DNA of 25,394 bases from positions 1 to 25,394 of IMG/VR virus record IMGVR_UViG_3300043411_000305, one strand, 5' to 3'. Position 1 is the first letter of the stretch. Each line of letters begins with the position of its first letter. Both the position numbers and the translations under genes were made by a program. This document shows positions 6,645-21,231 of this stretch, piece after piece. The notes under the pieces were generated by a model that saw only the letters and a list, made by a program, of their open reading frames with translations, made no database searches and was not told where the DNA came from. This DNA comes from a virus.

Positions 6645-7484
6645 TTAAGGTTTGTTTATTGCTGTCCAAGTTGTTGTAGGCTTTATAATTGAGTTCCATC
6701 CAGTCTTTGAAAACAAAGCTGATACTCCTGTTAAGATATAACTTCCAACTTCACAAGTTAAACGATATAGTTTTCCAGCACTAAATCCTGTTAAAACAAA
6801 AGTTCCTGTGTCTGCAACTAAATCAAATACACCTTGAAATGGGATATTTGTATTAAAGGTTGCATCTCCAGAAGCAGTTAAATCATTTGCATTAGAAGTT
6901 GAATCTACCCAACTGTTATTAAATTTGAAATATGCTACTAACCCAGATTCATTCCCCGCAAGTTCTCGCCTATCGTAGTCAGTCAATTCTGTAGGTGTTC
7001 TAACATCATCCCAGATTCTAACTTCATCTATTTCTCCGTCGAATAATGCAGACGCCGCTGCCGCAGGGTCAGACGCTATTCTTAGTCTAGTAGTTGTGGT
7101 GTTTGGAACTCCCATAACTGAGGATGTTGAAGTTAGTGCAGAGCCATCCATATAAGCCTTTATATTTGTTGTGTCATTCATATTTGACCCAGCAACATAG
7201 GTCACAGCTATGTGATGCCAAGAGTCATTAGTCACTCCTGTTGCAGTCCAATATTGATTTGCTCCTTCAATGGCGATACCAATCTTTCCAGATTCTACTT
7301 TAAATTCCCAACCACCTAACGCTGAATCATCACCAAAAGAGAAAACTGTTTGGCTTGAAGCATTTGCTGTTCTAACCCAAGCCTCAACTGTTCTAGCAGC
7401 TGAGCCCGAAGGAAGACCTGTAGGTGAGGATTTTGTAGCGTAATCCCCAGTCCCATCAAAAGTTGCGACATAGGTGTTCGCCAT
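6645..7484 (-). CDS. LamG/concanavalin-fold tail adhesin
   Basis: A 279-residue protein. Residues about 5-170 form a LamG-like jelly-roll: FDGTGDYAT near the start, WHHIAVTYVAG at 89-99, IKAYMDG at 108-114 and DEVRIWDDVRT near 151-161 are the standard strands of the Laminin_G_3 type. Such domains bind carbohydrates or act as structural caps in surface proteins. The C-terminal part has two similar short repeats (DTGTFVLTGFSA and EVGSYILTGVSA) of a kind seen in phage tail proteins. No signal peptide is present, as expected for a cytoplasmically assembled virion. It sits between a conserved virion protein and the beta-rich tail protein with 1-nt gaps. A receptor-binding or fibre role is inferred from the fold and position. 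Confidence 0.8.
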   Translation of the reverse strand: MANTYVATFDGTGDYATKSSPTGLPSGSAARTVEAWVRTANASSQTVFSFGDDSALGGWEFKVESGKIGIAIEGANQYWTATGVTNDSWHHIAVTYVAGSNMNDTTNIKAYMDGSALTSTSSVMGVPNTTTTRLRIASDPAAAASALFDGEIDEVRIWDDVRTPTELTDYDRRELAGNESGLVAYFKFNNSWVDSTSNANDLTASGDATFNTNIPFQGVFDLVADTGTFVLTGFSAGKLYRLTCEVGSYILTGVSALFSKTGWNSIIKPTTTWTAINKP

Positions 7485-7898: not shown

Positions 7899-8594
7899 TT
7901 ATTTGTAATCTAAATTAGATGCTTTTAAACTTGTAAATCTATCTTCTTGCTTATCTGAATAAAACTTTTTCATTCTGACTTTAATCTCCTCATACTCTCT
8001 TTTGATAGATTCTCTTTGAGGAAGATTGTTTGCAATTGAGTAATCAAGAGAAGGACCAAGAGCTAGTATTGAATGAAAGATTGAATCAAATCCAGGCTCT
8101 CTTGTTCCTGTTGTTAATTCTGTAGAAGTAAACTCAAATGGTCCACGAGAAATCCAGATTTTAAGACCTGCTGTGACATTCGCTGTAGGGATTGGGTAAA
8201 GGAATAATGCACCAGCTTGTAGGTCATAGTAAGGTTCTGATTGAGAGAAATCTCCTATTGCGTTAGAAGCTGTAGCAGTTCCTCTTTCTCCTATATCAAA
8301 AGCAGATACTTTAACCCAGTTTGTTCCATCATAAGAAATTTCTAATCTCTTTATTTCAAAAGTAGTAGGTGGAAGAATGTAGCTTTGTTGATTTGCAACA
8401 AGGTTTGTTGTAAGTATTGGGTAGTCTGTATAAGCACTATCATCATAATCCCACTCATCTTGGCTTTCTAAGATTAGAGTGTGAACATCATTGTAATGTT
8501 TATTAACAGTAATAAGCCTCTTTGCGTTAGTGAAAGAGTTGACATCTGCGTTAGTCAGAAAAGTAATGTATGTTGAAATATCTCCTATAGTCAT
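7899..8594 (-). CDS. Head-tail adaptor (SU10-type connector)
   Basis: A 231-residue protein with the outline of podovirus adaptors. A helical N-terminus (about 1-45) contains the pattern of a short helical bundle. A beta domain opens with TTNLVANQQSYILPP (about 63-77), continues with EIKRLEISYDGTNWVKV, and ends with a hydrophobic LFLYPIP strand. A C-terminal charged helix (about 192-225) follows. Adaptors of this kind dock on the portal and join it to the tail. It is the first gene after the glycan cassette and the first of the tail group, and it matches the SU10-like capsid and portal genes upstream. The assignment rests on pattern and context; a structural search would settle it. Confidence 0.7.
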   Translation of the reverse strand: MTIGDISTYITFLTNADVNSFTNAKRLITVNKHYNDVHTLILESQDEWDYDDSAYTDYPILTTNLVANQQSYILPPTTFEIKRLEISYDGTNWVKVSAFDIGERGTATASNAIGDFSQSEPYYDLQAGALFLYPIPTANVTAGLKIWISRGPFEFTSTELTTGTREPGFDSIFHSILALGPSLDYSIANNLPQRESIKREYEEIKVRMKKFYSDKQEDRFTSLKASNLDYK

Positions 8595-8622
8595 AGCTTA
8601 TTTATTCTTAGCTGACTACAAT

Positions 8623-8674
8623 CCTAACCTCTTAGAGTGTAATCATTTAAGACCAGACAAGGTAAGGGTTAACC
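8623..8674 (-). promoter_or_regulatory. Hairpin between glycan cassette and tail genes
   Basis: The 105-nt gap between the last cassette gene and the adaptor holds no gene. Plus-strand arms TAACCTCTTA (8625-8634) and TAAGGGTTA (8663-8671) pair over 9 bp with one bulge and one G-U pair, around a 28-nt loop. The loop and arm edge carry AGACAAGGTA (8655-8664), also present in the hairpin after the capsid gene. There is no T-run on the transcribed side, so this is not a standard intrinsic terminator. An RNA-processing or partial termination site is possible. The AT-rich stretch at 8685-8710 could hold a promoter but no clear boxes are readable. Confidence 0.4.
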
Positions 8675-8699
8675 GCCTTTGAATACATTATATTTTATA

Positions 8700-9365
8700 T
8701 TATATTTTACGAGTTAAATACTCTAGTTTATAGTCTCCCATTTCCGCTAAAACTCTTGTTTCATTTGCTCTTTTATCATTGTTAGGAAGTTTATTTCTGA
8801 AAGAATCATCTTCAACAAAATCGTGGTCAATTGCAACTCCTTCCATATCTGGTATGACTTCAAACTTATACTTTTTAAGTGCGTCTATTCTGTATGCAAT
8901 TTCACAATTCTCCCAACTCCAACCTTCACAAAATCTTTCATCAAATCCACCCACTTCATAGAACACTTCTAGTGGTGCTGACGCTAAATCTATCTCCCAT
9001 TCAAAAGGTCTGACTTCTCGTCTTTCTTTGTAGTGTCTCCAGTCCCAGTTAGGTTCTTCATTAAAATTGTTGACCTTTCCTACGGGAAATGTAAACAGAC
9101 TATTTGGCGATTCTTTGTGTAAAGTGTCAAGTTTCTCTAAGAAGTCAGGCTCAATCTTTATACAGTCTTGTAGCATAAAAACTATCTCTCCTTTAGCCTT
9201 AGCAATAGCTTTATTCCAGTCCTTTGGTAGTGTATAACCCCACCTAGTAAGTCCAGGCTCTATAATCCACTCAAAATCACTAAAAGTTTGTTCTTCTAGG
9301 CATTTCTTGGTTATATCTAGATATTGAGGTCTGATTGTTGGTGTTATTACACTTATTTTAGGCAT
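8700..9365 (-). CDS. GT-A glycosyltransferase (GT2-like)
   Basis: A 221-residue protein. The N-terminus KISVITPTIRPQYL at 3-16 is the first strand of a GT2-type nucleotide-sugar-binding fold. The usual DXD position reads QDC at 66-68 in FMLQDCIKIEPDFL, an atypical metal-binding triad. GGFDERFCEGWSWENCEIAYRI at 139-160 is the typical acceptor-side motif in which an acidic residue acts as base, here within WENCE. His181 may help metal binding. It should transfer a sugar from a nucleotide donor in the host cytoplasm; donor and acceptor cannot be read. Its start overlaps the methyltransferase stop by 13 nt, so the two are translationally coupled. It is the last gene of the cassette. The changed DXD is the main oddity. 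Confidence 0.85.
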   Translation of the reverse strand: MPKISVITPTIRPQYLDITKKCLEEQTFSDFEWIIEPGLTRWGYTLPKDWNKAIAKAKGEIVFMLQDCIKIEPDFLEKLDTLHKESPNSLFTFPVGKVNNFNEEPNWDWRHYKERREVRPFEWEIDLASAPLEVFYEVGGFDERFCEGWSWENCEIAYRIDALKKYKFEVIPDMEGVAIDHDFVEDDSFRNKLPNNDKRANETRVLAEMGDYKLEYLTRKI

Positions 9366-9955
9366 AGTAGGAATTGTTTACCTTCTAAGTCTACTTTTAT
9401 TTCATGTTTAGGTAAATGTTTTGCAAAAAACTCGTATGGATTTTTGTTAGGATGCCACTCTATAATCAGGTTAGGACATTTCTTGACTATCTTAGAGAAC
9501 TCTATAACATTTTCTTCTGCACCTTCAATGTCCATCTTTAGCAAATCTGGTTTTGGTAGTTTAAAAGATTCTAGTTCTTCTAGTTCCATTATTTCACCAT
9601 TAAAAATTATGTCTGGTCCTGTATCTATATGTTCTACAAAGAAAGCACCTATGTTTCCATCTCCCCTTGAAAGAACTCTCGAAGAAGACTGACCATAAAA
9701 TATACCTTTCTGTATGTGGTTTATGTCTGGCATGTATGTGACTAATGCTTCAAAGTTAGAAGCAATAGGCTCGAAAGCATATATTTTAACTTTATCGTAT
9801 TTATTTTTTATAAGATGACTAAAAGCACCTACGTTTGCACCTAAATCATAAAATACCTTTACCTCCCCTGGTAAGTTGTCCATGATTCTAGTAAATGGAT
9901 TATTTGTCCACTCTCTTATTGTATATTCCCAATGGTCCTTTGGTGTTGCTGGCAT
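9353..9955 (-). CDS. FkbM-family SAM-dependent methyltransferase
   Basis: A 200-residue class I methyltransferase of the FkbM family. The SAM-binding motif VFYDLGANVGAFS lies at 34-46, the acidic strand-2 motif AFEP at 60-63, and the family hallmark LLKMDIEGAEENVI at 138-151. FkbM enzymes O-methylate hydroxyl groups on sugars and other small molecules and often sit with glycosyltransferases. Here it lies between two glycosyltransferases, overlapping the upstream one by 40 nt and the downstream one by 13 nt, so methylation of a sugar made by its neighbours is the natural reading. The first Met is kept because the next one (25) is close to the first SAM motif. It is compact for the family but all core motifs are present. 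Confidence 0.9.
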   Translation of the reverse strand: MPATPKDHWEYTIREWTNNPFTRIMDNLPGEVKVFYDLGANVGAFSHLIKNKYDKVKIYAFEPIASNFEALVTYMPDINHIQKGIFYGQSSSRVLSRGDGNIGAFFVEHIDTGPDIIFNGEIMELEELESFKLPKPDLLKMDIEGAEENVIEFSKIVKKCPNLIIEWHPNKNPYEFFAKHLPKHEIKVDLEGKQFLLCLK

Positions 9956-10833
9956 ATATTTATTGCTTCTTTTAATTTACTTGCATAATGTTTTGATGTC
10001 CATTTCGACATGACATAATCTCTACCTGATTTTTTATCCCAATTTCTTATTTCTTCTACTGCCATTTTTATATGCTGTGGGTCTGGAGGTACAACCAAGC
10101 CCAATCCTGATTCTTCTACATATTCTCTGTTCTTTGGACTATCTTCCATACATACGACAGGTATATTACAAGCCATAGCCTCTAGTGTTGCACGTTGTCC
10201 ACCACCCCAGAAGTCTGAAGTCTGCAAAAGACACAATGATTGATTTAGAAGTTCTGCTATTTTCTCGTAAGGTTGTTCTGGCAAGACAGTCGTGCCTAGT
10301 TCTTCACACCTCTTAAATGGATATGGGTCGCTATCTTGAAACCTACCAACGACTATTCCCTTATCTCCTATTGATTCACCTACTAGCCATTGTCTTTTCC
10401 AACTTGCACAAGTCCCTTGATGGATTCCGTCATAGAGTTTATCTATCTCTTGAGGGAAGAATATGTCCTCGTTTATTCCAAATGCTGTAATGTTCTTAAC
10501 ACCTATGTTAGTAAATTCCTCTGCATTTATTTTACTTTCTACACATACTAAGTCAAAGCCTTCAACCCATTCCTTTTTAATAGGTCCACCAGCGAATAGA
10601 AGAACTTTCTTGTTAGGAAGATTCATTACCTTTTTATAGTTCTCTGCGTCTTTGCTGTTTATGGTGCAAGGTGCTTCCCAATAAAACACTATTCCTTCTT
10701 CTGGAATATCGTCTGTAGGCTCAAAGTATTTAACCTCATACTTTTCTTCTAAGTGTTTCATAGCTCGCCAAAGACCATCTTTCCAATGTCCGTATCTTCC
10801 GTCTATTCCTTGCCAGATGAAGTTAATTCTCAT
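9916..10833 (-). CDS. GT-B glycosyltransferase (GT4-like)
   Basis: A 305-residue protein with a GT4-like C-terminal nucleotide-sugar domain. FWGGGQRATLEAMACNIPVVCME at about 208-230 is the diagnostic segment, with Glu218 in the position of the donor-binding Glu; GLGLVVPPDP follows. The N-terminal domain is short (the family is usually 350-400 residues) and begins INFIWQGIDGRYGHW. Residues FAGGP and VCVESKIN resemble the linker strands of the first Rossmann domain. It probably adds a hexose-type sugar in the cytoplasm; donor and acceptor are unknown. It overlaps the FkbM gene by 40 nt and the upstream coiled-coil gene by 11 nt, so it belongs to the same transcript. Confidence 0.88.
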   Translation of the reverse strand: MRINFIWQGIDGRYGHWKDGLWRAMKHLEEKYEVKYFEPTDDIPEEGIVFYWEAPCTINSKDAENYKKVMNLPNKKVLLFAGGPIKKEWVEGFDLVCVESKINAEEFTNIGVKNITAFGINEDIFFPQEIDKLYDGIHQGTCASWKRQWLVGESIGDKGIVVGRFQDSDPYPFKRCEELGTTVLPEQPYEKIAELLNQSLCLLQTSDFWGGGQRATLEAMACNIPVVCMEDSPKNREYVEESGLGLVVPPDPQHIKMAVEEIRNWDKKSGRDYVMSKWTSKHYASKLKEAINICQQHQRTIGNIQ

Positions 10834-11257
10834 ATAGAGATAATTCTTCGTCTATGTTTTTTAGTTTTGATTCAAATTCTTTTATTTGCTTAAAGTGTTT
10901 AGAATAACTCTCTAGTTCTCCAATATCTGACCCTTTTTCTTCGCTGAACTTCACAAGGATTTCTTTCGAGTCGTTTAATTTATCTAGCTCTTTTTGATAT
11001 AAATCTTTCTCTTCTGCAATTTTTAGATACTCCCAGACAACAGAAAGAACATCTGTTCCTGCTTTCTTTAATGTTAGCTTCTTTAACAAAAAATCTCTGT
11101 TAGGCACATTACCTAGTTTTTCTACTATCTCTTTAAACTTTGAAAATCTTGAAGGTTCTATTAAATCATCAGAGTTAAGACCCATCACTTCCATAATATG
11201 GATTGAGTCTAATACCGAACTATTTATTCCATCTAATTTGTTTGCTAAATTATCCAT
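10823..11257 (-). CDS. Coiled-coil protein of unknown function within the glycan cassette
   Basis: A 144-residue acidic, Lys/Glu-rich protein. The C-terminal half (about 80-142) has heptad-like Leu/Ile/Phe spacing interrupted by charged residues and should form a coiled coil. The N-terminal half is helical with no recognisable domain, and no enzyme motif, Cys pair or signal peptide is present. It overlaps the 776-residue glycosyltransferase by 13 nt and the GT4-like gene by 11 nt, so it is co-translated with both. It may be a scaffold or specificity subunit for the sugar enzymes. That is inference from position only. Confidence 0.7.
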   Translation of the reverse strand: MDNLANKLDGINSSVLDSIHIMEVMGLNSDDLIEPSRFSKFKEIVEKLGNVPNRDFLLKKLTLKKAGTDVLSVVWEYLKIAEEKDLYQKELDKLNDSKEILVKFSEEKGSDIGELESYSKHFKQIKEFESKLKNIDEELSLYEN

Positions 11258-13575
11258 TGTTTTGCTATGGTTTCCCAGTTAAACTTATCTGTCCATTGTA
11301 TCATTTCGTCTCTGTTTCCTATAGGTTGTTTGAGTATCTTAACAACAGCGTCAACCCATTCCTTTTGTTTCTTTTCATCTTCTATACCGAAACTAAATTG
11401 ATATGGTTTAGCCCAATTATCTTTATTCTTGTCTGAGTGTATCTTTACCCCATACTTAATTGATTCGTCAAATGCTCCAAAGTCTGTTGCGACTGGTATA
11501 CAACCACAAGCCTGAGCCTTCTTAACTGAGATACAATCAATCTCTGCAAACTCTGATGGATAAGCTAGAACATTTCCTTCAAGATATAACTTGGCACATT
11601 CTGATTGAGGAATTTTACCTAGTGATTCTATTCCTGCTTCATCTATTTCTTTTTGTAGGTTAGTTCTCCATTCCATCATCTGTTTATTGTTTCCATAGTG
11701 CTGGTCAAATATGTCCCAACCATAAGCCCATTTCATTTTAACTTCTGGGACTTTTTCTTTTACCATCTTAAATAGCTTAGGCATAACATCCATACTTCTG
11801 TCTGGTGAGGAAGTGTTAACGAGTAGCATAGGGTCTTTCTTTACCTTTTGAGAGAATAGGTCAAAGTCCATACCATTCGGTAGCACTTGTATTTTATCTT
11901 CTGGTAGGTTAGGGAATAGTGACTTATGGAAGTTAGTCTTAACGAATACTTTTGTTACACGGGAAACTCTTTCAGGCGTGAATTCCTCGTTAGGGATAAC
12001 ATCGTGCATATCAACATAGATTCTGTCTGCATTGATTTCGTGGTCAAGCATTTGAGGGTGTCTCCATAGAATAACAATGTCTTGTTTGTCTCGGTAATTC
12101 CACATCCAGAAAGGCTTATATTTAACTCCGTCTGATTCCATTTCGTATGGTCCACAAGAGTTATAAACTGTCACATTGTAACCCATCTTAGTCCATTGTT
12201 TCGAGAGATTTATAACAGCTTCCTCAGAACCTCCGAAACCTTTAGTTTTAAATAACTCAGGATTCCATTCGTGGTCTGTCATCCCACAGAAATAAGCTAT
12301 ATCTTTTCCTGATGATTCCTTTTTAGGAAATCTCATATTTCTAAGATGGCAAACGCTAGGGTGAGAGCGAGATTCTACAGGTAGACTATCAATTTCTTTC
12401 TTGAGTTCTTCGTCAGGTAAGTCTTTAACCTTATCTATAAACACAACAACATCTTTAAGTCTTTCAACTTCCTTTTCCATTTGCTTTACCAAATCGGCTA
12501 GTGCTTTATCTTCTGGAGCTATTTGAGCACAGGCTTTCATAAGTGGTAGAGATAAGTCTTCCCTACCTTTCCACATATAAACCTTAGCAAGAGCCATCAT
12601 AGGGTTGTAGTCATAGTCTCTAGGATTGTAGACGATTATTGAGTGATATGGTGGTTTTAGTTTCAATCCATATAGTAGATAATACTCAGCTTTGTCATAG
12701 CTCTTATGCTTTTGGAAGAAATAACCTAACTGAATATAAGCGTCAGGGTAGTGAGGTTTCATTCCTATTGATTCATAGAAACAACGCTCTGCTTCGTCTA
12801 GTCTACCTATGTCTCCATTTAACAGGGCTATCCTTAGCTTAGCTAGATACTTTTCTTCATCTGATTGACTAGATTGCATAAACTTATTAAACATCTCAAG
12901 AGCTTCTTCTACCTGATTATTACCCCATAGAGAATTAGCCAAGTTCCAATAAGAACGAGGGTCTTGTGGCTCATCTTCTAATTGCTTTCTAGCAATTTCA
13001 ACATTTCTTTTTTTATTATTATTTACTCTCGTATCGTCTGAGAAGTGAAGTCTGTCTATCCCGTCTAGTAGTTTTATATCTACCTTTCTTTCATTTATTA
13101 AATCCTCGTGTAGTCTACCTACCCACTTAAAAGTTCCGTCATTCTTCACAATCATTGTTTTCTTATGAACAACTGTAGGGTTCTTTCTTTCGTCAAAGTC
13201 ATATAGATACCACATACCAAAAGCGTCAACATCTTTGTTTCCTTCAATTGTAGCTTTTAGTTTCTCTGCACCACGAATAACATCATCAGCGTCACACCAA
13301 AGTATATAATCATACTCTTTAGGAACTTGTGAGAAGTTAAAGTTTCTTGCCTTAGCAAAGTCGTCACACCATTCAAAAGTAGATACTTCTGCCTTGTGAA
13401 GTTTAGCTACTTTCTCTACTTGTTTATTAGGTTGCTCTCCCTTTTTAAAAGTAGAAGTGATAAACATCTTATCAACTGAACCATCTAAGGAAGAGAGACA
13501 TCTATCAAGGGCTACAGCTTCATCATCTGAACCTTTGACAATCATAGCTAGTGCTATCTTTTTTTCTTTTTTCAT
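11245..13575 (-). CDS. Fusion protein: GT2 glycosyltransferase, TPR repeats and GT-B glycosyltransferase
   Basis: A 776-residue protein with three parts. Residues 1-180 are a GT2 domain of the SPS/TPR-linked type: IALAMIVKG at 7-15, LDRCLSSL at 23-30, WCDDFAKARNF near 69-79, and the metal site ILWCDADD at 91-98. Residues about 195-380 hold TPR-like helix pairs such as RSYWNLANSLWGNNQVEEALEMF and PDAYIQLGYFFQKHKSYDKAEYYL. Residues about 424-776 form a GT-B fold, with GFGGSEEAVINL at 446-457 as the N-terminal glycine loop and EIDCISVKKAQACGCIPVA at 678-696 as the donor-binding segment. Two sugar-transfer sites joined by a protein-binding module suggest stepwise or repeated addition on a protein acceptor. 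It starts on the stop codon of the upstream gene and ends in TAG. Confidence 0.9.
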   Translation of the reverse strand: MKKEKKIALAMIVKGSDDEAVALDRCLSSLDGSVDKMFITSTFKKGEQPNKQVEKVAKLHKAEVSTFEWCDDFAKARNFNFSQVPKEYDYILWCDADDVIRGAEKLKATIEGNKDVDAFGMWYLYDFDERKNPTVVHKKTMIVKNDGTFKWVGRLHEDLINERKVDIKLLDGIDRLHFSDDTRVNNNKKRNVEIARKQLEDEPQDPRSYWNLANSLWGNNQVEEALEMFNKFMQSSQSDEEKYLAKLRIALLNGDIGRLDEAERCFYESIGMKPHYPDAYIQLGYFFQKHKSYDKAEYYLLYGLKLKPPYHSIIVYNPRDYDYNPMMALAKVYMWKGREDLSLPLMKACAQIAPEDKALADLVKQMEKEVERLKDVVVFIDKVKDLPDEELKKEIDSLPVESRSHPSVCHLRNMRFPKKESSGKDIAYFCGMTDHEWNPELFKTKGFGGSEEAVINLSKQWTKMGYNVTVYNSCGPYEMESDGVKYKPFWMWNYRDKQDIVILWRHPQMLDHEINADRIYVDMHDVIPNEEFTPERVSRVTKVFVKTNFHKSLFPNLPEDKIQVLPNGMDFDLFSQKVKKDPMLLVNTSSPDRSMDVMPKLFKMVKEKVPEVKMKWAYGWDIFDQHYGNNKQMMEWRTNLQKEIDEAGIESLGKIPQSECAKLYLEGNVLAYPSEFAEIDCISVKKAQACGCIPVATDFGAFDESIKYGVKIHSDKNKDNWAKPYQFSFGIEDEKKQKEWVDAVVKILKQPIGNRDEMIQWTDKFNWETIAKQWII

Positions 13576-13877
13576 TATATTTTGTCGGCAACTCTAAATT
13601 CTCTAAATGTATTAGCGAACCAGCGTGCACCTTCTTTACTTTTAAAGTATTCAAGTTCCTCAACATCAAGGTTCTTTATTATTAGTGATTGTAGTTTCTC
13701 AGGTGTCTCATAGAGTATTCTACCTACAAAGTTAGAGCCATCTTGGGTTGAACCAAACTCGTCTTTTTGTAGTCTCCTAGACATTTCTATGCCCTCACAG
13801 ACTGTCTTGTATTCCTCTGGGAATGTTTCCTTATATAGCTTTACTACATTTTTTATTTTGTTTTGTGTTTTTTGCAT
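13575..13877 (-). CDS. Small protein of unknown function after the capsid gene
   Basis: A 100-residue, mostly helical, charged protein with a conserved-looking aromatic C-terminus (GARWFANTFREFRV). No known domain is recognised and there are no transmembrane segments or Cys pairs. It follows the hairpin downstream of the major capsid gene, and its stop codon overlaps the start of the 776-residue glycosyltransferase (TAATG). It could be a head-completion protein, from its place, or the first gene of the glycan cassette, from its coupling. The sequence does not decide between these. Confidence 0.7.
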   Translation of the reverse strand: MQKTQNKIKNVVKLYKETFPEEYKTVCEGIEMSRRLQKDEFGSTQDGSNFVGRILYETPEKLQSLIIKNLDVEELEYFKSKEGARWFANTFREFRVADKI

Positions 13878-13891
13878 TAGATTATTTTCTC

Positions 13892-13936
13892 ATTGTATCG
13901 CCTACCCCGAATGAGACAAGGTAGGCGATAAACAAT
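13892..13936 (-). terminator. Strong hairpin downstream of the major capsid gene
   Basis: An 11-bp perfect stem, TATCGCCTACC (13896-13906) with GGTAGGCGATA (13920-13930), encloses a 13-nt loop. The stem extends by 4 bp (13892-13895 with 13933-13936) past a 2-nt bulge. It fills the gap between the capsid stop and the next gene. Phages commonly place a terminator or RNase site here so that capsid mRNA exceeds downstream mRNA. The transcribed 3' side lacks a U-run, so partial termination or processing is more likely than full intrinsic termination. Confidence 0.5.
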
Positions 13937-13947
13937 CTTAATTAAGT

Positions 13948-14874
13948 TTAAGCAGACTTTAGGAATCCAGAAGCAAAGAAGTTTGCATCTTGGTTTCTAA
14001 CTTCAAGAGTTAGAGCACCAGTAATCATTTTCTTTGTGTAAGAACCGCTTTCTGCCAAATCCTTCATTTCAGGTTTGTATAGATATGCGATTTTTAGTTT
14101 TTCTGGTCGTAGTCCTAGAACTCTACCAGTTGCATCGTTTGTGTCTTGCACATATCGGTGCTTGTGGATAGATAGTGTTCCGAACGCTGTTTCGTATGTA
14201 GACACTGTCTTAACGATATTTACAGCTGAGCTTGGTGTATTAACTACAATGTTGCTCTTTTGTGTAAATCCGTCAATAACTCGTCTCATAACTCCTCCAA
14301 CTAGAAGGTCTGTTGCAACATCTCCATTTGAGTTGTCCCAGTTTCCTTGCATCAATCCATCAAGAATTGTTGCTGAGAATACTGTTCCAGAAGTGTGAGC
14401 TGTTGTGTTTGTTGATTTGCTGATTGCGGCTATTACTCCAGCCATTTTTGCTGTAGTTCCAGATAATCCAGAAACTAGAGTTGAACGAACTAGGTCATAT
14501 TCTGCAGCATTACCCCAGTTCATAAGACCCTTTTGTGTTTGTCTTGCAGTCTCGTTTTGTCCGTGGTAGTGCTGAACTTTCTCTTGCTGTTTAGCAATTT
14601 GGAATCCGTATTCGATTTGCTCAACAATGTTTGAAAGTCTTGTAGGTGTTGTAAGTGTTGTCAAAGAAACATCTGTTCCCATAGCTGTTGCTAGAGATGC
14701 AGGTGTAACCAATGTATCAACTAGGAAAGAGTGAACTGTGTCAATCGCTTCTGTTTTACCAAGAAGTCTCATAACTGTGTTTTCTTCCGCAGTCAATATT
14801 TCGACAGCGTTTAATACAACATCTTCTTTTCTTGATACATCTCCGTATGTAAGAAGTGTGCTTGCTATTGCCAT
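13948..14874 (-). CDS. Major capsid protein (DUF5309/SU10-type, HK97 fold)
   Basis: A 308-residue protein matching the layout of DUF5309 capsid proteins of SU10-like podoviruses. The N-terminal TAEENTVMRLLGKTEAIDTVHSF (about 29-51) corresponds to the family's start, where a short 'x-T-P-F' type loop precedes strands. TTPTRLSNIVEQIEYGFQIAKQQEKVQHY (about 75-103) is the typical stretch that follows. A long central helix (QKGLMNWGNAAEYDLVRSTL) is the likely spine helix. The C-terminal strands carry ALTLEVRNQDANFFASG. No prohead protease is visible here. The scaffold-like gene lies 9 nt upstream and a strong hairpin lies downstream. The leader AAATATAAAAT before ATG is typical of this genome. Capsid identity is well supported by family pattern and context. 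Confidence 0.85.
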   Translation of the reverse strand: MAIASTLLTYGDVSRKEDVVLNAVEILTAEENTVMRLLGKTEAIDTVHSFLVDTLVTPASLATAMGTDVSLTTLTTPTRLSNIVEQIEYGFQIAKQQEKVQHYHGQNETARQTQKGLMNWGNAAEYDLVRSTLVSGLSGTTAKMAGVIAAISKSTNTTAHTSGTVFSATILDGLMQGNWDNSNGDVATDLLVGGVMRRVIDGFTQKSNIVVNTPSSAVNIVKTVSTYETAFGTLSIHKHRYVQDTNDATGRVLGLRPEKLKIAYLYKPEMKDLAESGSYTKKMITGALTLEVRNQDANFFASGFLKSA

Positions 14875-14883
14875 ATTTTATAT

Positions 14884-15510
14884 TTATTTATCAAGTGCTT
14901 CAAGAACAGCTCTCGTTATAAGGTCTCTACCAGCTTCTTTTTGGGCTGAATCGCCGTTGAATACTAGGTCTTTACCTTCTGAGAGTTTGCTCTTTGATGA
15001 AGCAATGCGTGGGTTGCTTTCAAGCACAGATTTCATCTCTTGAGACTTTTTGAATCCTGATACAGAACCAAAAATATCTTTAAATGTGTCAGTCTTAACA
15101 ACTTCTGACACTGGGATTTTCTCTGTTACGCTAATAGCTTCTATTACTTTTTGAATAGATGGGTCATTATACTCAGGGTTTCGTGAGTAGAACATATCTT
15201 TCTCATATTGCTCCCGTGTAATAAACTGTTCCCCGCTAAATTCTTTTTTAACTTCTTCGGCAATAGAATCTTTCTTTTTGCCTACATAGCTAAATGTATC
15301 TTTAAATGCTTTCAGAGCTGTTTCTTTGTTAGGGAATTTCTTTCCTAACGCTTGTTCTATCTCCTCTAGCGAGATACTTCCACTATTAGTGCTTGTATCT
15401 GTAGTCTCGGATTTAGAGTCAGCTCTTGCCTCGTCTGATGCCACAATATTGTTATCACTAGCGTCACCAGTTAAGAGGTCTTGAGTAATTAACTCATTAT
15501 TATCTTCCAT
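14884..15510 (-). CDS. Probable capsid scaffolding protein
   Basis: A 208-residue acidic, low-complexity protein. The first 45 residues are Asp/Ser/Thr/Asn-rich and disordered-looking. The middle (about 46-100) and C-terminal parts are charged helices, and the protein ends RDLITRAVLEALDK. This composition and the position immediately before the major capsid gene, 9 nt away, are the usual signature of a scaffolding protein that guides procapsid assembly. No protease motif is seen. Scaffold proteins share little sequence, so the call rests on composition and gene order. Confidence 0.75.
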   Translation of the reverse strand: MEDNNELITQDLLTGDASDNNIVASDEARADSKSETTDTSTNSGSISLEEIEQALGKKFPNKETALKAFKDTFSYVGKKKDSIAEEVKKEFSGEQFITREQYEKDMFYSRNPEYNDPSIQKVIEAISVTEKIPVSEVVKTDTFKDIFGSVSGFKKSQEMKSVLESNPRIASSKSKLSEGKDLVFNGDSAQKEAGRDLITRAVLEALDK

Positions 15511-15519
15511 AGATTTTAA

Positions 15520-15575
15520 ATGTGCTTATCTTATAATTTGGGAACAAATGTCCCCACGGGAGGTATCGTGGAAAC
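15520..15575 (-). promoter_or_regulatory. Hairpin-bearing gap before scaffold and capsid genes
   Basis: The 67-nt gap upstream of the scaffold gene has two short plus-strand hairpins: GGGA...TCCC (15541-15555) and CCACG...CGTGG (15554-15571). They share the CC boundary and could be alternatives. A T-run is missing, so no standard terminator is claimed. The AT-rich side nearest the scaffold start (TTATAAGATAAG on the minus strand) could be part of a promoter that boosts scaffold and capsid expression, but no paired box is clear. Confidence 0.3.
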
Positions 15576-15577
15576 AC

Positions 15578-15880
15578 TTATTTCTTTATTATAAAGTTCT
15601 TCTCGTTGTTTATCAGGGATATGTTCTCTAGTGATTTACTAGCAGTTCCTTTTATACTGTCTAATATCTTTTTAACACAAGCTACAGCTAGTCTTCGGCT
15701 TTTTATCTCCGAAGCTAGGTCTGCGTCTGTGTCTATCTCTAAAATACTTGTGAGGCTTGCCATCTCTTTTGAGAAGATTTCCTCTATCAAGTGCCAACCT
15801 TCGTGATTAACAATCTGTTCGATAAGTTTCTCTTGACTTATTAAATTACTTGTTTCTAAATCAATTTTACTATCTTGCAT
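15578..15880 (-). CDS. Small helical protein of unknown function between portal and scaffold
   Basis: A 100-residue, largely helical protein. HEGWHLIEEIFSKEMASLTSIL at 27-48 is the most distinctive part; its His and Glu residues do not form a complete metalloprotease motif. There are no Cys pairs or membrane segments. It starts 12 nt after the portal stop, preceded by ACTCGTAAAAT, and sits where many phages encode a small head-assembly or portal-associated protein. That placement is the only hint of function. Confidence 0.7.
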   Translation of the reverse strand: MQDSKIDLETSNLISQEKLIEQIVNHEGWHLIEEIFSKEMASLTSILEIDTDADLASEIKSRRLAVACVKKILDSIKGTASKSLENISLINNEKNFIIKK

Positions 15881-15892
15881 ATTTTACGAGTA

Positions 15893-17677
15893 TTAAACTT
15901 GTGGTAATACTGCTTGTTCTGTTAAGTTTTGCATATCAGGCATTGTTTGTTCTTGTGGCATTTGTCCTTGAACTTGTGACATTTGAGGTGGTCTCATCTT
16001 AGGCATAGGAAGATTTAGCAAATCAAATATCTGTCTCATTATAGGTTCTTTGTCCTCTACGAATGCTAACATTTCTTTTAGGTTTTGAACAGTCACAGAA
16101 GTATCTAGGTCTTCATTAGTTATTCTAACATCAGTTTCTAGGCTCTCAGCTACTATTTCTTGAACAAGCTCCATAAATAATTGTGGACTTCTTGAAAGTC
16201 TTTCTCTTGCACTATCAACTGCCATAGATAATTCTTGTTCTGTTGGAAGAGTTGGGCTATTGTCTATTGCTTCTCTTGCGTATTGTAGAACAACTCTGTC
16301 TACTATTTCCTTGAAGAAAGCGTCATCACTAGAGAATTTAATAACATCTCCTTTCTTTATTCCTTTAGCTAGAATAGGTAGGTATTGTCTATCAATCCAT
16401 CTTTCTAGGAACATCCCGATTGCTTCTTTGATTATTGTGTAAGTAGACTTAGCGTTAGTGCTTTGTATTGCAACCGCTGTAGCAGAGCTTGAAGCTGGTA
16501 GAGCTTCTCCCGCTGTGACAGGAAATGCTTGTGTTGTCTTAGTAGCCCATTCCTTAAACACTTCTTCGTCTTGATAAGAAGTATTGTCTACAGGATTGAT
16601 ATTGAATTGTTCTATATCTTCAAGGTTATCTAGTGTGATTGCTCCGTTAGAAGGAAGTCTTGAAAGTTGTTGAGCTGTAACTCCTGCTCCTTTTCTAATC
16701 TTAAACAAACCAAGTTGAGCCATAACATTTCTGTTAAGTCTTATGTTTGCAGTTAGGTTTATTCCCTCTTGTAGTGCCATTAGAGCTTCTGCAAATCCTA
16801 TTCCATAGAATCTTCCTGATACTTTAGCAATTCTTAGTTCTTCGTAAGGTTTTATGTAACAACCTTCTTCATCTTGTCTTGTATAAGTTTCAATTAGGTG
16901 GACTCTCATATCTCCAGAATCAAGTCCTGAAACTATAATATGCCCATTTGGAATCATTCCTTTATCTTTCTTGCTTCCTGTTATAAGAAACTTAGGAATG
17001 TAACCCCATAGTTCCCAAACATCTGTTAACTCTCCTGTTGTAGTAGTAGCCTGTGAATCATCTCCATCTGTTTTGCTTAGGTCTGTAGAACCTTTTATAT
17101 CTTCTGTGTTCTTCCATCCAGTCATTGAAGCAATTTCTTCTGGTGTTGAAATAGAACGCTCTGTGACTCTATAAGCCTTTTGAAGATTATCTTCTGTAGG
17201 GTCAAGGTATAGGTTTAGAAGCTCAACTGTTTTTCTCTTTGGCTTTCCGTTCTCTTCCCAAGTCTTCCAAACAACAGTTCCATCTATAAATAGTTGTCTT
17301 TGTGTTTCATCAAGAACTTCTCCAAAGTGCATTTTATCTAGCTTCTCTCTAACATAAGAACGAACAAAGTCTGTAATACCGAAACCATCTTTTGTTTTAG
17401 CTTTGAATCCTATATCTTTTGAATCTAGGTCAACATTCTTTACAGCGTCTTCAATTAGTGAGCGAGTTAGAGGAATCCAAATCTTTTCTCTCTGTGTTAT
17501 AGGGTCAATAGGACTATCAAATACACCCCAGTAGTTCTTTCTGAAATAACGAATAAGGTCTCTCATCTTGAAACCTACTTTTTCTGTCACCCAACACACC
17601 TCGTCTTCCCACTTGCTTTTTTCTTCTAAGACTAATTGTATTGCAAGACGCTTTGCTTCATCAGTATATTTTGCCAT
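15893..17677 (-). CDS. Portal protein (podovirus type)
   Basis: A 594-residue protein of portal size and layout. The N-terminal helical part contains IPLTRSLIEDAVKNV near 67-81; the wing and stem follow, with QRQLFIDGTVVWKTW at about 125-139, where the family has a 'd.l..G......w' strand. A helix-rich region at about 400-520 includes the SSSATAVAIQSTNAKS stretch typical of the region near the crown. The C-terminus is Pro/Gln/Met-rich and low complexity. Portals form a dodecameric ring through which DNA is packaged and ejected. It lies directly between the large terminase and head assembly genes, the expected place. A motif ACTCGTAAAA lies just before the leader. No oddity in length. Confidence 0.87.
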   Translation of the reverse strand: MAKYTDEAKRLAIQLVLEEKSKWEDEVCWVTEKVGFKMRDLIRYFRKNYWGVFDSPIDPITQREKIWIPLTRSLIEDAVKNVDLDSKDIGFKAKTKDGFGITDFVRSYVREKLDKMHFGEVLDETQRQLFIDGTVVWKTWEENGKPKRKTVELLNLYLDPTEDNLQKAYRVTERSISTPEEIASMTGWKNTEDIKGSTDLSKTDGDDSQATTTTGELTDVWELWGYIPKFLITGSKKDKGMIPNGHIIVSGLDSGDMRVHLIETYTRQDEEGCYIKPYEELRIAKVSGRFYGIGFAEALMALQEGINLTANIRLNRNVMAQLGLFKIRKGAGVTAQQLSRLPSNGAITLDNLEDIEQFNINPVDNTSYQDEEVFKEWATKTTQAFPVTAGEALPASSSATAVAIQSTNAKSTYTIIKEAIGMFLERWIDRQYLPILAKGIKKGDVIKFSSDDAFFKEIVDRVVLQYAREAIDNSPTLPTEQELSMAVDSARERLSRSPQLFMELVQEIVAESLETDVRITNEDLDTSVTVQNLKEMLAFVEDKEPIMRQIFDLLNLPMPKMRPPQMSQVQGQMPQEQTMPDMQNLTEQAVLPQV

Positions 17678-17704: not shown

Positions 17705-18916
17705 TTACGAGTAGGAAACTTTGTATAAATTGAAGTCTTCTTGCCTAGAATTATCTATCGGTCTTTGATTAAATAGAACATATCTTAGTGCATCAAGAGC
17801 GTGGTCATTTTCTTTAACAGGTTCTTCTGGATTGTTTCCTTCTCCGCTATGTTCTTTGTATCTGTATGTTTCTAGCTCTGCTATTAGGTTCTGACAAGAG
17901 TTGTGTATGTGTATTCTGTTAGTTTTAAATAGCTCTCTAACGCTGTCTATTCCTTTCTCTACATCCTTTGATACTTCTTGAACATTAAGTCCAGCTCTTT
18001 TCATTTCTTCTATTCTGTCTGGCTCTGCTGGGTCTGGGTAATACTTTTCAGCTCTTATACTTTTACACCAATCTATTATTTCCACATTTGTTTTCTCTCT
18101 CTTATACCACTCTGAGGTAATCCAGAAGTGATTATCAAAGTCCTGTATAACTGTTAGAACTGCTGTTGGGTTAGTAAATCCAAAGTCTATACCTGACAAT
18201 ATCCTGTTTACTCTTATATCAGCTACCTCGTATGTATGTCTCTCTCTGTTAAATTCTTTATAGACTAATCCTTCTGCCTTTCTAAAGTCTGCAAGATACT
18301 CTTGAGCAAAAGCGTTCTCTGGTTTACTTGCTTTCTCTCTCGCTATTTCTTCTACAGGTATGTGAGGGTTATCGTATGAGGTAAAGTGAAATGATTTGTA
18401 GTCACTATTATTCTCTTGCATATTATATAAATCATAGAAGTGATTGAATCCTTTAGGTGTTGAGATAAATAACGCTTCTCCCTTTCTATCAATCAAGGTA
18501 GGTGATAATACTTCGTTCCATCCTTCCCAGAATCCTCTGTAGAACGCTACCTCGTCTAATACAATGAAGTCATTAGCTAGTCCTCTACCTTTTCCTCTGT
18601 CTTTAACAGCTTCCCATCCATATAGAGTTATAGAAGATTCTCCTCCGTCTATTGTCATTATCTTAACTTCTAGTCTCTGCTCGTTCTTGTATGTGATTAT
18701 GTTCTCACACTTTGATACAAGCATACCCCAAGTGATTTCTCTTGCGTCATCTCTAGTAGGAGCAAAGTAGGCTATTCTTCTACCTTTCTTTGCCATAGCC
18801 TTTCCTACCATTTCTTCTACAGCTAGAAGTGTTTTACCAAATCTTCTTCCACAGTTTAGAACTCTAAATCTATGAGAGTCTCTAGCTATTTCCTTCTGGG
18901 CTGGTGTTAGATTCAC
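17705..18916 (-). CDS. terL: Terminase large subunit (packaging ATPase and nuclease)
   Basis: A 403-residue two-domain packaging motor. The ATPase has Walker A CGRRFGKT at 22-29, Walker B FIVLDEVAF at 117-125 with catalytic Glu122, and the coupling motif STP at 152-154. The C-terminal RNase H-like nuclease has Asp244 in IDFGFTNPT, a second acidic site at 295 in YPDPAEPD, and Asp371/Asp375 in ENDHALDAL. The start is GTG at 18916: an in-frame stop lies two codons upstream, and the next Met (36) is already past Walker A. It overlaps the small terminase by 35 nt. The length is near the lower end for the family, but both active sites are intact. Confidence 0.95.
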   Translation of the reverse strand: MNLTPAQKEIARDSHRFRVLNCGRRFGKTLLAVEEMVGKAMAKKGRRIAYFAPTRDDAREITWGMLVSKCENIITYKNEQRLEVKIMTIDGGESSITLYGWEAVKDRGKGRGLANDFIVLDEVAFYRGFWEGWNEVLSPTLIDRKGEALFISTPKGFNHFYDLYNMQENNSDYKSFHFTSYDNPHIPVEEIAREKASKPENAFAQEYLADFRKAEGLVYKEFNRERHTYEVADIRVNRILSGIDFGFTNPTAVLTVIQDFDNHFWITSEWYKREKTNVEIIDWCKSIRAEKYYPDPAEPDRIEEMKRAGLNVQEVSKDVEKGIDSVRELFKTNRIHIHNSCQNLIAELETYRYKEHSGEGNNPEEPVKENDHALDALRYVLFNQRPIDNSRQEDFNLYKVSYS

Positions 18917-19334: not shown

Positions 19335-19760
19335 TTAATTTAAAGTCAAGTATTTATCCATTATCTCAAAGTATTCATCATTGAACCAGTTGTTGTCTTT
19401 TAGGAATTGTCTAAACTCTTTCAGTCCATTATACCAATCTTGTTTAGGTGGCTCAAAGTTTCCTAGTATGTAGTATCTGTCCCATTGTCCATTTACTTTG
19501 CATTTCTTATCTTCTCTTTCGTATAATCCTTCATTTCCATTCTCTCTTTTAAAGTATTTACAATAATTCATAACTCCATCTAGTTGAGCTAATCCGATGG
19601 TTGTTTCTTTAAACCATTTATCAAATTCTTCCCTTGAACTAAATACTATGTCTAATTCATCTGGCTCTTGTCCTTTCCTTTGAGGTGTCTCTGGTTGTTT
19701 CCCACCATTAAAACCTATGTGTTTATGCCTGTATATGTATTTTGTCTGTTCCTTAGTCAT
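19335..19760 (-). CDS. Protein of unknown function between chaperonin and terminase
   Basis: A 141-residue protein rich in Lys, Asp and aromatic residues (Tyr, Trp, Phe). The N-terminus has HKHIGFNGGKQPETPQRKG, then a charged helical region, and the C-terminal half ends in FRQFLKDNNWFNDEYFEIMDKY. No domain is recognised. It does not look like GroES, being longer and lacking the mobile-loop pattern. It overlaps the GroEL-like gene by 8 nt, so it is translated with it, and lies 18 nt upstream of the small terminase. It may work with either neighbour. Confidence 0.7.
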   Translation of the reverse strand: MTKEQTKYIYRHKHIGFNGGKQPETPQRKGQEPDELDIVFSSREEFDKWFKETTIGLAQLDGVMNYCKYFKRENGNEGLYEREDKKCKVNGQWDRYYILGNFEPPKQDWYNGLKEFRQFLKDNNWFNDEYFEIMDKYLTLN

Positions 19761-21231
19761 CTATTGTCAAATCTTTTGGCTTCTCTAACTTATCTGCGAT
19801 TGCTACATCTGTTGTTATTAGTAGTCCTGCGTATGAGCAAGCGTTCTCTAGTGCTACTCTCATAACTTTTGTAGAATCTATTACTGTATCAGGTATTTCT
19901 ATCTTTCCTCCTGCGTTCTCTACTATCTTTAGGTATGGTGCTCTTAGGGTGTTGTATAGGATTGAGTCTTTCATTTCGTTTGCTATCTCGTATAGAGCCA
20001 TTCCCCCTCCTTTAACATAACCTTCTTCTAGGGCACATCTAGTTGCATTTACAGCGTCTTCTACTTTTAGGTTGAGGTATTCTCTTTCTGAATCAGTTGT
20101 TGCTCCTACCTTTATAGTTCCAATTACTCCACCTAGATTACCTATTCTCTTTGTTAGTAGCTCTTTGTCGTATAGACTTTCAGCTTTGTCTTTCTTTTCC
20201 TTTAAGTCTTGAACCGCTTTTTTTACATCACCATTTCCTTTGATTATTATGGTTTCGTCTTTAGATATTATAACCTTTTTTGCCTTTCCCAAGAAATCTT
20301 CTACTACATTTTCTAGCTTAATATCCTTTGTTTCATCAATCATCTTTCCTCCACAAAGAGATACTAAATCCTCAAATGTTTCTTGTTTACTTGATGGAAT
20401 CTTTACCACAACTGTTTGAAATCCACTTTCAAGTCTTAGCTCTAGTAGTTTCTTTACTACTTCTATTTCTATTTGCTCTGTGAAGATAACAAGTGACTTA
20501 GACAAAGGGCTAACAACCCCAAGAACTGTTCTTAGTTGTGAGAGAGAGTTTATCTTGTTATTTGTGTATAAAATTAATGGGCTTTCTAGCTCTGCTTGTC
20601 CTTTGTTATTGTTTTCCATAGACGGAACAATGAACCCGTGATTAAACTTTGAGCCATCTTCAAATGAGTATGAAGTTGTGAACTCTAAACTTTGCTCTGT
20701 CTTTACAGCTCCGTCTTTACCTACTTTATTTAAAACTTCTGCAATAACAGAACCTATCTCTTCATTCTCCATTGAGATAGAAGCTATGTGTTTTAGTTCT
20801 TCTTTTGTTTTTATCTTTTTAGATTTACCAGCGAGTAGTTGAACAGCTCTTGCACATTCTCTGTCTATTTCTCTTTTAATATCCATAGGATTTTTCTGTT
20901 CTAGGATATTGCCAGCTTTTTTAAATGCTTCGTTAGCTAGTGATTGTAGAAGACAAGTAGTAGTCGTTGTCCCATCTCCAGCTTTTTCGTTAGTCTTTCT
21001 AGTCGCCGCCTTAATTATAGAACCCCCTAGCTCCTCAATCTCATCTTCTAGGTTTATGTTCTTAGCGACTGTTTCCCCGTCGTTTGTTATAAGTGGGTCT
21101 TGGTATGGTCTTCCTATAACTGCATTTCTTCCTGATGGTCCTAAAGTGGACACCACAGAATCAGCTACTTTATTTAATCCTCTTAATAGACTATCCCTTG
21201 CTTCTTGATTTGTTTTTAGAATCTTTAACAT
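19753..21231 (-). CDS. GroEL-type chaperonin, compact phage form
   Basis: A 492-residue group I chaperonin. Equatorial motifs are present: TLGPSGRN at 29-36, ITNDGETVA at 48-56 (ADP-phosphate Asp51), AGDGTTTTT near 84-92 (Asp86), and the catalytic region KVEDAVNATR with Asp392, the counterpart of Asp398 in E. coli. KGGGMAL at 407-413 and VIDSTKVMRVALENACSYAGLLITTD near 450-475 complete the C-terminal equatorial domain. It is about 55 residues shorter than E. coli GroEL (548). Nearly all the loss is after Asp392: the segment before the final 'DPTKV'-like motif (here IDSTKV) that normally carries the NYGYNA loop is missing, and there is no GGM tail. ATPase residues are kept, so it should be active. 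No GroES is in the window; it may borrow a host one. It overlaps the zinc-ribbon gene by 7 nt. Confidence 0.95.
   Translation of the reverse strand: MLKILKTNQEARDSLLRGLNKVADSVVSTLGPSGRNAVIGRPYQDPLITNDGETVAKNINLEDEIEELGGSIIKAATRKTNEKAGDGTTTTTCLLQSLANEAFKKAGNILEQKNPMDIKREIDRECARAVQLLAGKSKKIKTKEELKHIASISMENEEIGSVIAEVLNKVGKDGAVKTEQSLEFTTSYSFEDGSKFNHGFIVPSMENNNKGQAELESPLILYTNNKINSLSQLRTVLGVVSPLSKSLVIFTEQIEIEVVKKLLELRLESGFQTVVVKIPSSKQETFEDLVSLCGGKMIDETKDIKLENVVEDFLGKAKKVIISKDETIIIKGNGDVKKAVQDLKEKKDKAESLYDKELLTKRIGNLGGVIGTIKVGATTDSEREYLNLKVEDAVNATRCALEEGYVKGGGMALYEIANEMKDSILYNTLRAPYLKIVENAGGKIEIPDTVIDSTKVMRVALENACSYAGLLITTDVAIADKLEKPKDLTIDD

Follow-up and report, generated by a model that had tools for sequence, protein, structure and literature searches.

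A candidate protein-glycosylation cassette among the head genes of SU10-like phages, with Patescibacteria as probable hosts

In a few mycobacteriophages the virions have been shown to be glycosylated, which shields the particles from antibodies. Corndog has an O-methyltransferase gene and three glycosyltransferase (GT) genes sited between those for portal and protease (PMC4351075), and the virions of Che8, Corndog and Myrna are reported to be glycosylated (PMC12363180, PMC11256854, citing Freeman et al. 2023). A related arrangement is found in a 25.4-kb virus record (IMG/VR record IMGVR_UViG_3300043411_000305, positions 1 to 25,394; this whole stretch is called the window below). Five open reading frames (ORFs) at 8700-13575, all on the minus strand, lie there between the genes of an SU10-type capsid protein and an SU10-type adaptor, and four of the five specify glycan enzymes. 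The block is read here as a cytoplasmic protein-glycosylation cassette forming part of the head module in a clade of SU10-like phages probably infecting Patescibacteria, with a virion protein as its presumed acceptor, and we give this reading a probability of roughly 0.62. Most likely, that is, these phages sugar-coat their own particles.

The lead gene of the block (11245-13575, minus strand) encodes a 776-residue fusion of a GT2 domain of the GT-A fold (residues ~1-180), a tetratricopeptide repeat (TPR)/helical domain (~181-415) and a GT4-type domain of the GT-B fold (~422-776). Pfam and NCBIfam models report the TPR (TPR_8, 3.4e-8), together with weak GT2 and GT1 matches. When a profile was built from the first 200 residues, its sole sequence matches in the PDB were GmaR (2.8e-21), SunS (1.4e-7) and ThuS (3.9e-5). 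All three of these enzymes place sugars on polypeptides, and SunS originates from the SPbeta prophage. The GT2 motifs of the fusion (WxxDFxxARN, DADD and GxxHE) align with theirs, and DADD (D95, D97, D98), WxxDFxxARN (W69) and WxGxxHED (H156/E157) are invariant in 14 sequences of ~50-58% identity. In a structure predicted from 14 relatives (predicted local distance difference test 88.6, predicted template modelling score 0.64), residues 1-286 superimpose on SunS (Z 24.5, 2.4 Å over 269 residues, 16% identity). For residues 422-776 the fit is to GT4 enzymes, at Z about 25-27 (PimA: Z 27.2 and 3.1 Å over 303 residues). The TPR/helical domain sits directly after the GT2 domain, as it does in GmaR, which glycosylates flagellin and whose TPR is proposed by the authors of that work to recognise flagellin (PMC9638930). 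By its sequence kinship and its predicted fold the lead enzyme looks like one of the polypeptide-glycosyltransferase type, built to attach sugars to proteins. The GT-B part of the phage fusion is 37-47% identical to that of proteins of 1,100-1,300 aa in Granulicella metagenome-assembled genomes (MAGs; L024:3362-7273, L023:8851-12777, L025:5593-9003), which on this likeness are a possible cellular source or recipient of it.

A scan with the fusion enzyme found 15 viral contigs with the same order of capsid gene, 100-aa gene (its product is called w100 below) and fusion gene. Since such a scan selects for the enzyme that it starts from, relatives were recruited a second time by the capsid protein alone. 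This gave 53 contigs, and each of the 44 that reach far enough carries the fusion gene, at a distance of 332-2133 nt downstream of the capsid gene; the remaining nine end too early or within a groEL gene lying between. Clustered at 95% capsid identity, the set comes to 34. An arrangement that recurs in all capsid-recruited contigs extending far enough is not due to chance. The distances among fusion enzymes also correlate with those among capsid proteins (r 0.78, n 14), as do those of portal (0.80) and scaffold (0.78); the values are lower for TerL (0.46) and GroEL (0.29, not significant: p 0.12, n 7). Being universal behind the capsid gene and diverging in step with it, the fusion gene is therefore a core, stable gene of the head module and no occasional passenger. 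The TerL gene (17705-18916) is exchanged among the relatives (23-68% identity, versus 53-70% for the capsid protein) and swaps more than the cassette enzyme does.

The arrangement is kept in the complete relative MW202524, with a fusion enzyme of 28.6% identity; its cassette runs in the same direction as the terminase, portal and capsid genes, and the block with the replication-type genes runs in the opposite one. In MW202497 the enzyme (25.3% identical) is split into GT2-TPR and GT-B parts around groEL, between terminase and portal (L019:3472-7791). Three other relatives (MW202481, MW202710 and MW202879) have the capsid gene, one small gene and then a 205-aa gene, with no cassette, and MW202462 has one gene at the capsid-adaptor junction, GT-A-like by eye (L020:13278-13895). 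A profile comparison detected no homology of w100 and the adaptor with the same-place proteins of cassette-less relatives, so that the "empty site" comparison is positional only. MW202462 also carries an FkbM-like and mannosyltransferase pair upstream of TerL (L020:3132-4197).

The fusion enzyme is fixed in the capsid clade and the genes behind it swap from phage to phage, so that the idea of a cassette inserted as a unit, raised in an earlier note made from the letters of the window, is not sustained by gene order in the relatives. Among 22 intervals complete to the adaptor, a GT4-like enzyme (in the window a GT-B glycosyltransferase of 305 aa, 9916-10833, minus strand; PF00534, 3.7e-10) is present in 17, and 18 have the GT-A enzyme; two contigs (L073 and L088) have two small genes of no known family after the fusion gene and nothing else. 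The window's FkbM-family methyltransferase (200 aa, 9353-9955, minus strand; PF05050, 1.9e-10; TIGR01444, 3.8e-15, above cutoff) occupies a variable "tailoring" slot. FkbM is rare, occurring in that same slot in three contigs (the window, L008 and L059), and many relatives have other methyltransferases or tailoring enzymes there. The other variable genes encode additional GT2s, methyltransferases from several families, a cytidylyltransferase, a nitroreductase, a polysaccharide deacetylase and, in one relative that is a prophage, a DegT (sugar) aminotransferase. Being of glycan-tailoring types, they support the reading of the block as a glycan-building one.

The minus-strand order in the window is groEL, a 141-aa gene, TerS, TerL, portal, a scaffold-like gene, capsid, w100, the cassette, the adaptor and then more structural genes. 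The major capsid protein (13948-14874, minus strand) is of the SU10_MCP family (PF17236, E 3.2e-43, above cutoff; PHROG 1328, major head protein; 53 relatives). The adaptor (7899-8594, minus strand) is placed by a marginal PF24175 match (1.7e-5; 25.8 bits, against a cutoff of 27) and by its same position in relatives. The five ORFs lie as the earlier note had them, between these two genes, and the overlaps of 1-40 nt that it mentioned are there as well: by coordinate arithmetic, in order from the fusion gene, they are 13, 11, 40 and 13 nt, and the fusion gene overlaps the preceding w100 gene by 1 nt. The gene list was likewise correct, four being glycan enzymes by Pfam, NCBIfam or profiles, with one amendment: the "coiled coil" of the 144-aa protein (10823-11257, minus strand; no family, weak homologues in several relatives) is a helical look only. 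The last gene, a GT2-like GT-A enzyme of 221 aa (8700-9365, minus strand), is weak in single-sequence Pfam (E 0.02, below cutoff) and matches NCBIfam EpsD at 3e-8; its profile matches SpsA at 1.4e-3 and the gene is kept in relatives, so that the assignment, weak from the single sequence, is firm at the level of sequence once relatives are included.

No terminator-like site was found on the coding (minus) strand between the capsid and adaptor genes, and internal promoter and terminator counts are no higher than in shuffled sequence. Together with the polypeptide-GT-type lead enzyme, the lack of membrane parts and the co-inheritance with the capsid gene, this bears out the reading of these genes as a glycan-building cassette within the operon of the head genes. 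The w100 gene (13877-13575, minus strand), between the capsid gene and the cassette, is part of the block; it is found in nearly all relatives and stays beside the fusion gene where groEL is inserted behind the capsid gene. An AlphaFold model of w100 (score 83.5 on the same local test) has five helices; the candidacy of w100 as a known decoration protein was rejected, the model having no significant fold match in the PDB (best Z 2.4). In GC content and in GC at third codon positions most cassette genes resemble the head genes, with only the 144-aa gene lower in GC, and a horizontal-transfer signature by composition was accordingly rejected. Head and cassette gene starts (7899-17677) are without a clear upstream Shine-Dalgarno sequence. 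The phage GroEL (492 aa, 19753-21231) changes place, as a comparison with L003, L008, L009, L015 and L022 shows: its gene lies before TerS in the window and between the capsid and 100-aa genes in many relatives, and it is absent from the available sequence of some. A protein with a concanavalin/laminin-G-like lectin domain is encoded near the cassette (6645-7484), and far larger multi-LamG proteins occur in other relatives (L089:13394-16225).

The host is indicated by two genomes. The strong match along the full length that GTDB genomes gave lies on a contig of a Candidatus Taylorbacteria MAG; this contig carries groEL, the 100-aa gene and the fusion gene. Among 380 genomes of that phylum, a single further one (G113) has capsid, full cassette and adaptor on a 67.8-kb contig, which continues with a tyrosine integrase and, beyond it, genes of cellular type (peptide deformylase, Fmt, QueA and a RarA-type ATPase) at even GC: this relative is integrated as a prophage, contiguous with host genes of a Patescibacteria genome. 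The enzyme occurs at E below 1e-60 in just those two genomes of the Patescibacteria sample and is therefore no host gene there. No capsid match came from 383 genomes of the class to which the first genome belongs, so that the host link rests on the two. As one chromosome junction has been seen and binning can err, the clade is said to infect Patescibacteria with fair but not full confidence. In an Acidobacteriota control of 297 genomes there were two weaker capsid matches, with no cassette enzyme in the stretches read; in one Acidobacteriota genome, the capsid region of a distantly related phage encodes a 458-aa protein, TPR-like by eye, in the space from the capsid gene to an adaptor-like gene (L096:10672-12048), no cassette enzyme being detected.

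Cytoplasmic enzymes, polypeptide-GT ancestry, a TPR domain, a place in the head operon and co-inheritance with the capsid gene together point to glycosylation of a virion protein. During what is presumably late expression, a freshly made virion protein would be bound by the GT2-TPR half of the fusion through the TPR and would receive its first sugar from that half, much as flagellin does from GmaR and sublancin from SunS. Further sugars would come from the GT-B half of the fusion, from the GT4-like enzyme and from the small GT-A enzyme, presumably in that order of action; the enzyme of the tailoring slot (here the FkbM methyltransferase) would modify or cap it; and the decorated protein, which might be the capsid protein, w100 or a neck or tail protein, would then enter the particle. 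The window's capsid protein has no Cys, which makes an O-link likelier if the capsid protein is the acceptor. That the glycan hides the particle from the host, or binds it to the host, we infer only.

Several observations weigh against this account. The Ser/Thr content of the capsid protein is 14-21% in cassette phages versus 18-21% in four relatives without a multi-gene cassette; on composition the capsid protein gains nothing as an acceptor, and the analysis did not single out any candidate acceptor protein. Neither GT-B enzyme has the canonical E-x7-E: the fusion reads E678/K686 and the GT4-like enzyme G210/E218, changes that are conserved within the families and leave the activity of both uncertain. 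Co-inheritance with the capsid gene could stem, at least partly, from close physical linkage and not from function. When the fusion enzyme, the GT4-like enzyme and the FkbM protein were compared by tblastn with 50,697 phage records, no named mycobacteriophage was matched at the level of sequence.

The cassette might instead remodel a surface glycan or a protein of the host (a pilin, for example, or a cell-wall polymer) so as to exclude superinfection or aid attachment, in the manner of serotype conversion. Groundwater Patescibacteriota phages carry O-antigen nucleotide-sugar and lectin-like genes that have been read as host-surface modifiers (PMC12911398), and one of the present relatives is a prophage. 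However, no cassette protein has a membrane segment (the highest 19-residue hydropathy is 0.87), the cassette is without flippase or lipid-carrier transferase, and there is no membrane flippase or membrane-bound GT family among the scanned variable genes; serotype conversion by a gtr operon is disfavoured because the cassette is without membrane proteins. It is, moreover, part of a head-gene operon and accompanies the capsid gene universally, and the nearest solved homologues of the GT2 domain act on polypeptides in the cytoplasm. Host remodelling is in our view unlikely, and the data suggest for this cassette a target other than the host surface. A defence-system reading was rejected, there being no PADLOC match.

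It is considerably less probable that the enzymes decorate phage DNA (as glucosylated or hypermodified bases) against restriction. Phage GTs frequently target DNA (PMC12619734), and a DNA-methyltransferase-like ORF is read in the window at 23751-22996, but the sequence matches are to polypeptide GTs and not to DNA GTs, a kinship of the lead enzyme that disfavours DNA glycosylation. The annotation of the complete relative MW202524 names no base-modifying gene, Pfam, PHROG and NCBIfam scans (of a window that is a fragment) matched no DNA-GT or base-modifying enzyme, and a TPR fusion with methyltransferase, deacetylase and aminotransferase partners suits a protein glycan better. The slightest chance of all goes to the phage chaperonin, or another non-virion phage protein, as an acceptor whose glycosylation serves assembly: groEL directly adjoins the cassette in many relatives and sits between the halves of the split enzyme in MW202497, but many enzyme-bearing contigs show no groEL in the available sequence and GroEL divergence does not follow that of the capsid protein.

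If a priming enzyme is, in this environmental clade, no less universal than the capsid protein, glycosylation of phage particles would not be mainly about animal immunity and would perhaps be structural or host-directed. A bolder proposal, which we hold only tentatively, is that protein glycosylation is an obligatory part of head making across this clade of Patescibacteria phages, with a polypeptide GT of two active sites inherited like a structural gene, and that the exchangeable tailoring genes set a particle "glycotype", which may decide which surface, of the episymbiont or of the host's own host, is stuck to or escaped. The lead enzyme is small, soluble and self-contained, which makes the claim approachable without the uncultured host; it would also offer a genetic handle on Patescibacteria phages and a possible GT2-TPR-GT4 tool for protein glycosylation.

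With GmaR, the Listeria flagellin GlcNAc transferase and antirepressor, the fusion shares a GT2 domain followed by TPR (2.8e-21), and the acceptor of GmaR assembles into a large structure (PMC9638930); GmaR, however, ends in an antirepressor domain and the phage enzyme in a GT4-type GT-B. The glycocin S-glycosyltransferases SunS and ThuS have the same GT-A plus TPR-like helical fold over fusion residues 1-286, but SunS acts on a Cys of a small peptide, a residue that the window's capsid protein does not have. OGT and SPINDLY (GT41) are also protein glycosyltransferases combining TPR and GT-B, and are among the Foldseek matches to the whole model, but the overall superposition is poor (root-mean-square deviation about 20 Å), the GT-B half of the fusion fits GT4 enzymes and the fusion has an extra GT-A domain. 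The Manatee Spring phages MW202524 and MW202497 have the fusion enzyme, GT partners and a related capsid protein; in them these genes are annotated just as glycosyltransferases or hypothetical, and the enzyme of MW202497 is split and upstream of the portal gene. Corndog, Che8 and Myrna, like the present phages, encode their own GTs, and in Corndog, as in the window, genes for GTs and a methyltransferase lie within or next to the structural operon; the virion proteins of these mycobacteriophages have been shown to be glycosylated. They differ in head type, no GT2-TPR-GTB fusion is reported for them, and the lead enzyme here is universal in its capsid clade. By analogy, the present system may work as virion glycosylation does in the mycobacteriophages, with a different priming-type enzyme and without detectable homology. 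Since phage virion glycosylation is already known from those phages, the cassette would be a variant of a known phenomenon.

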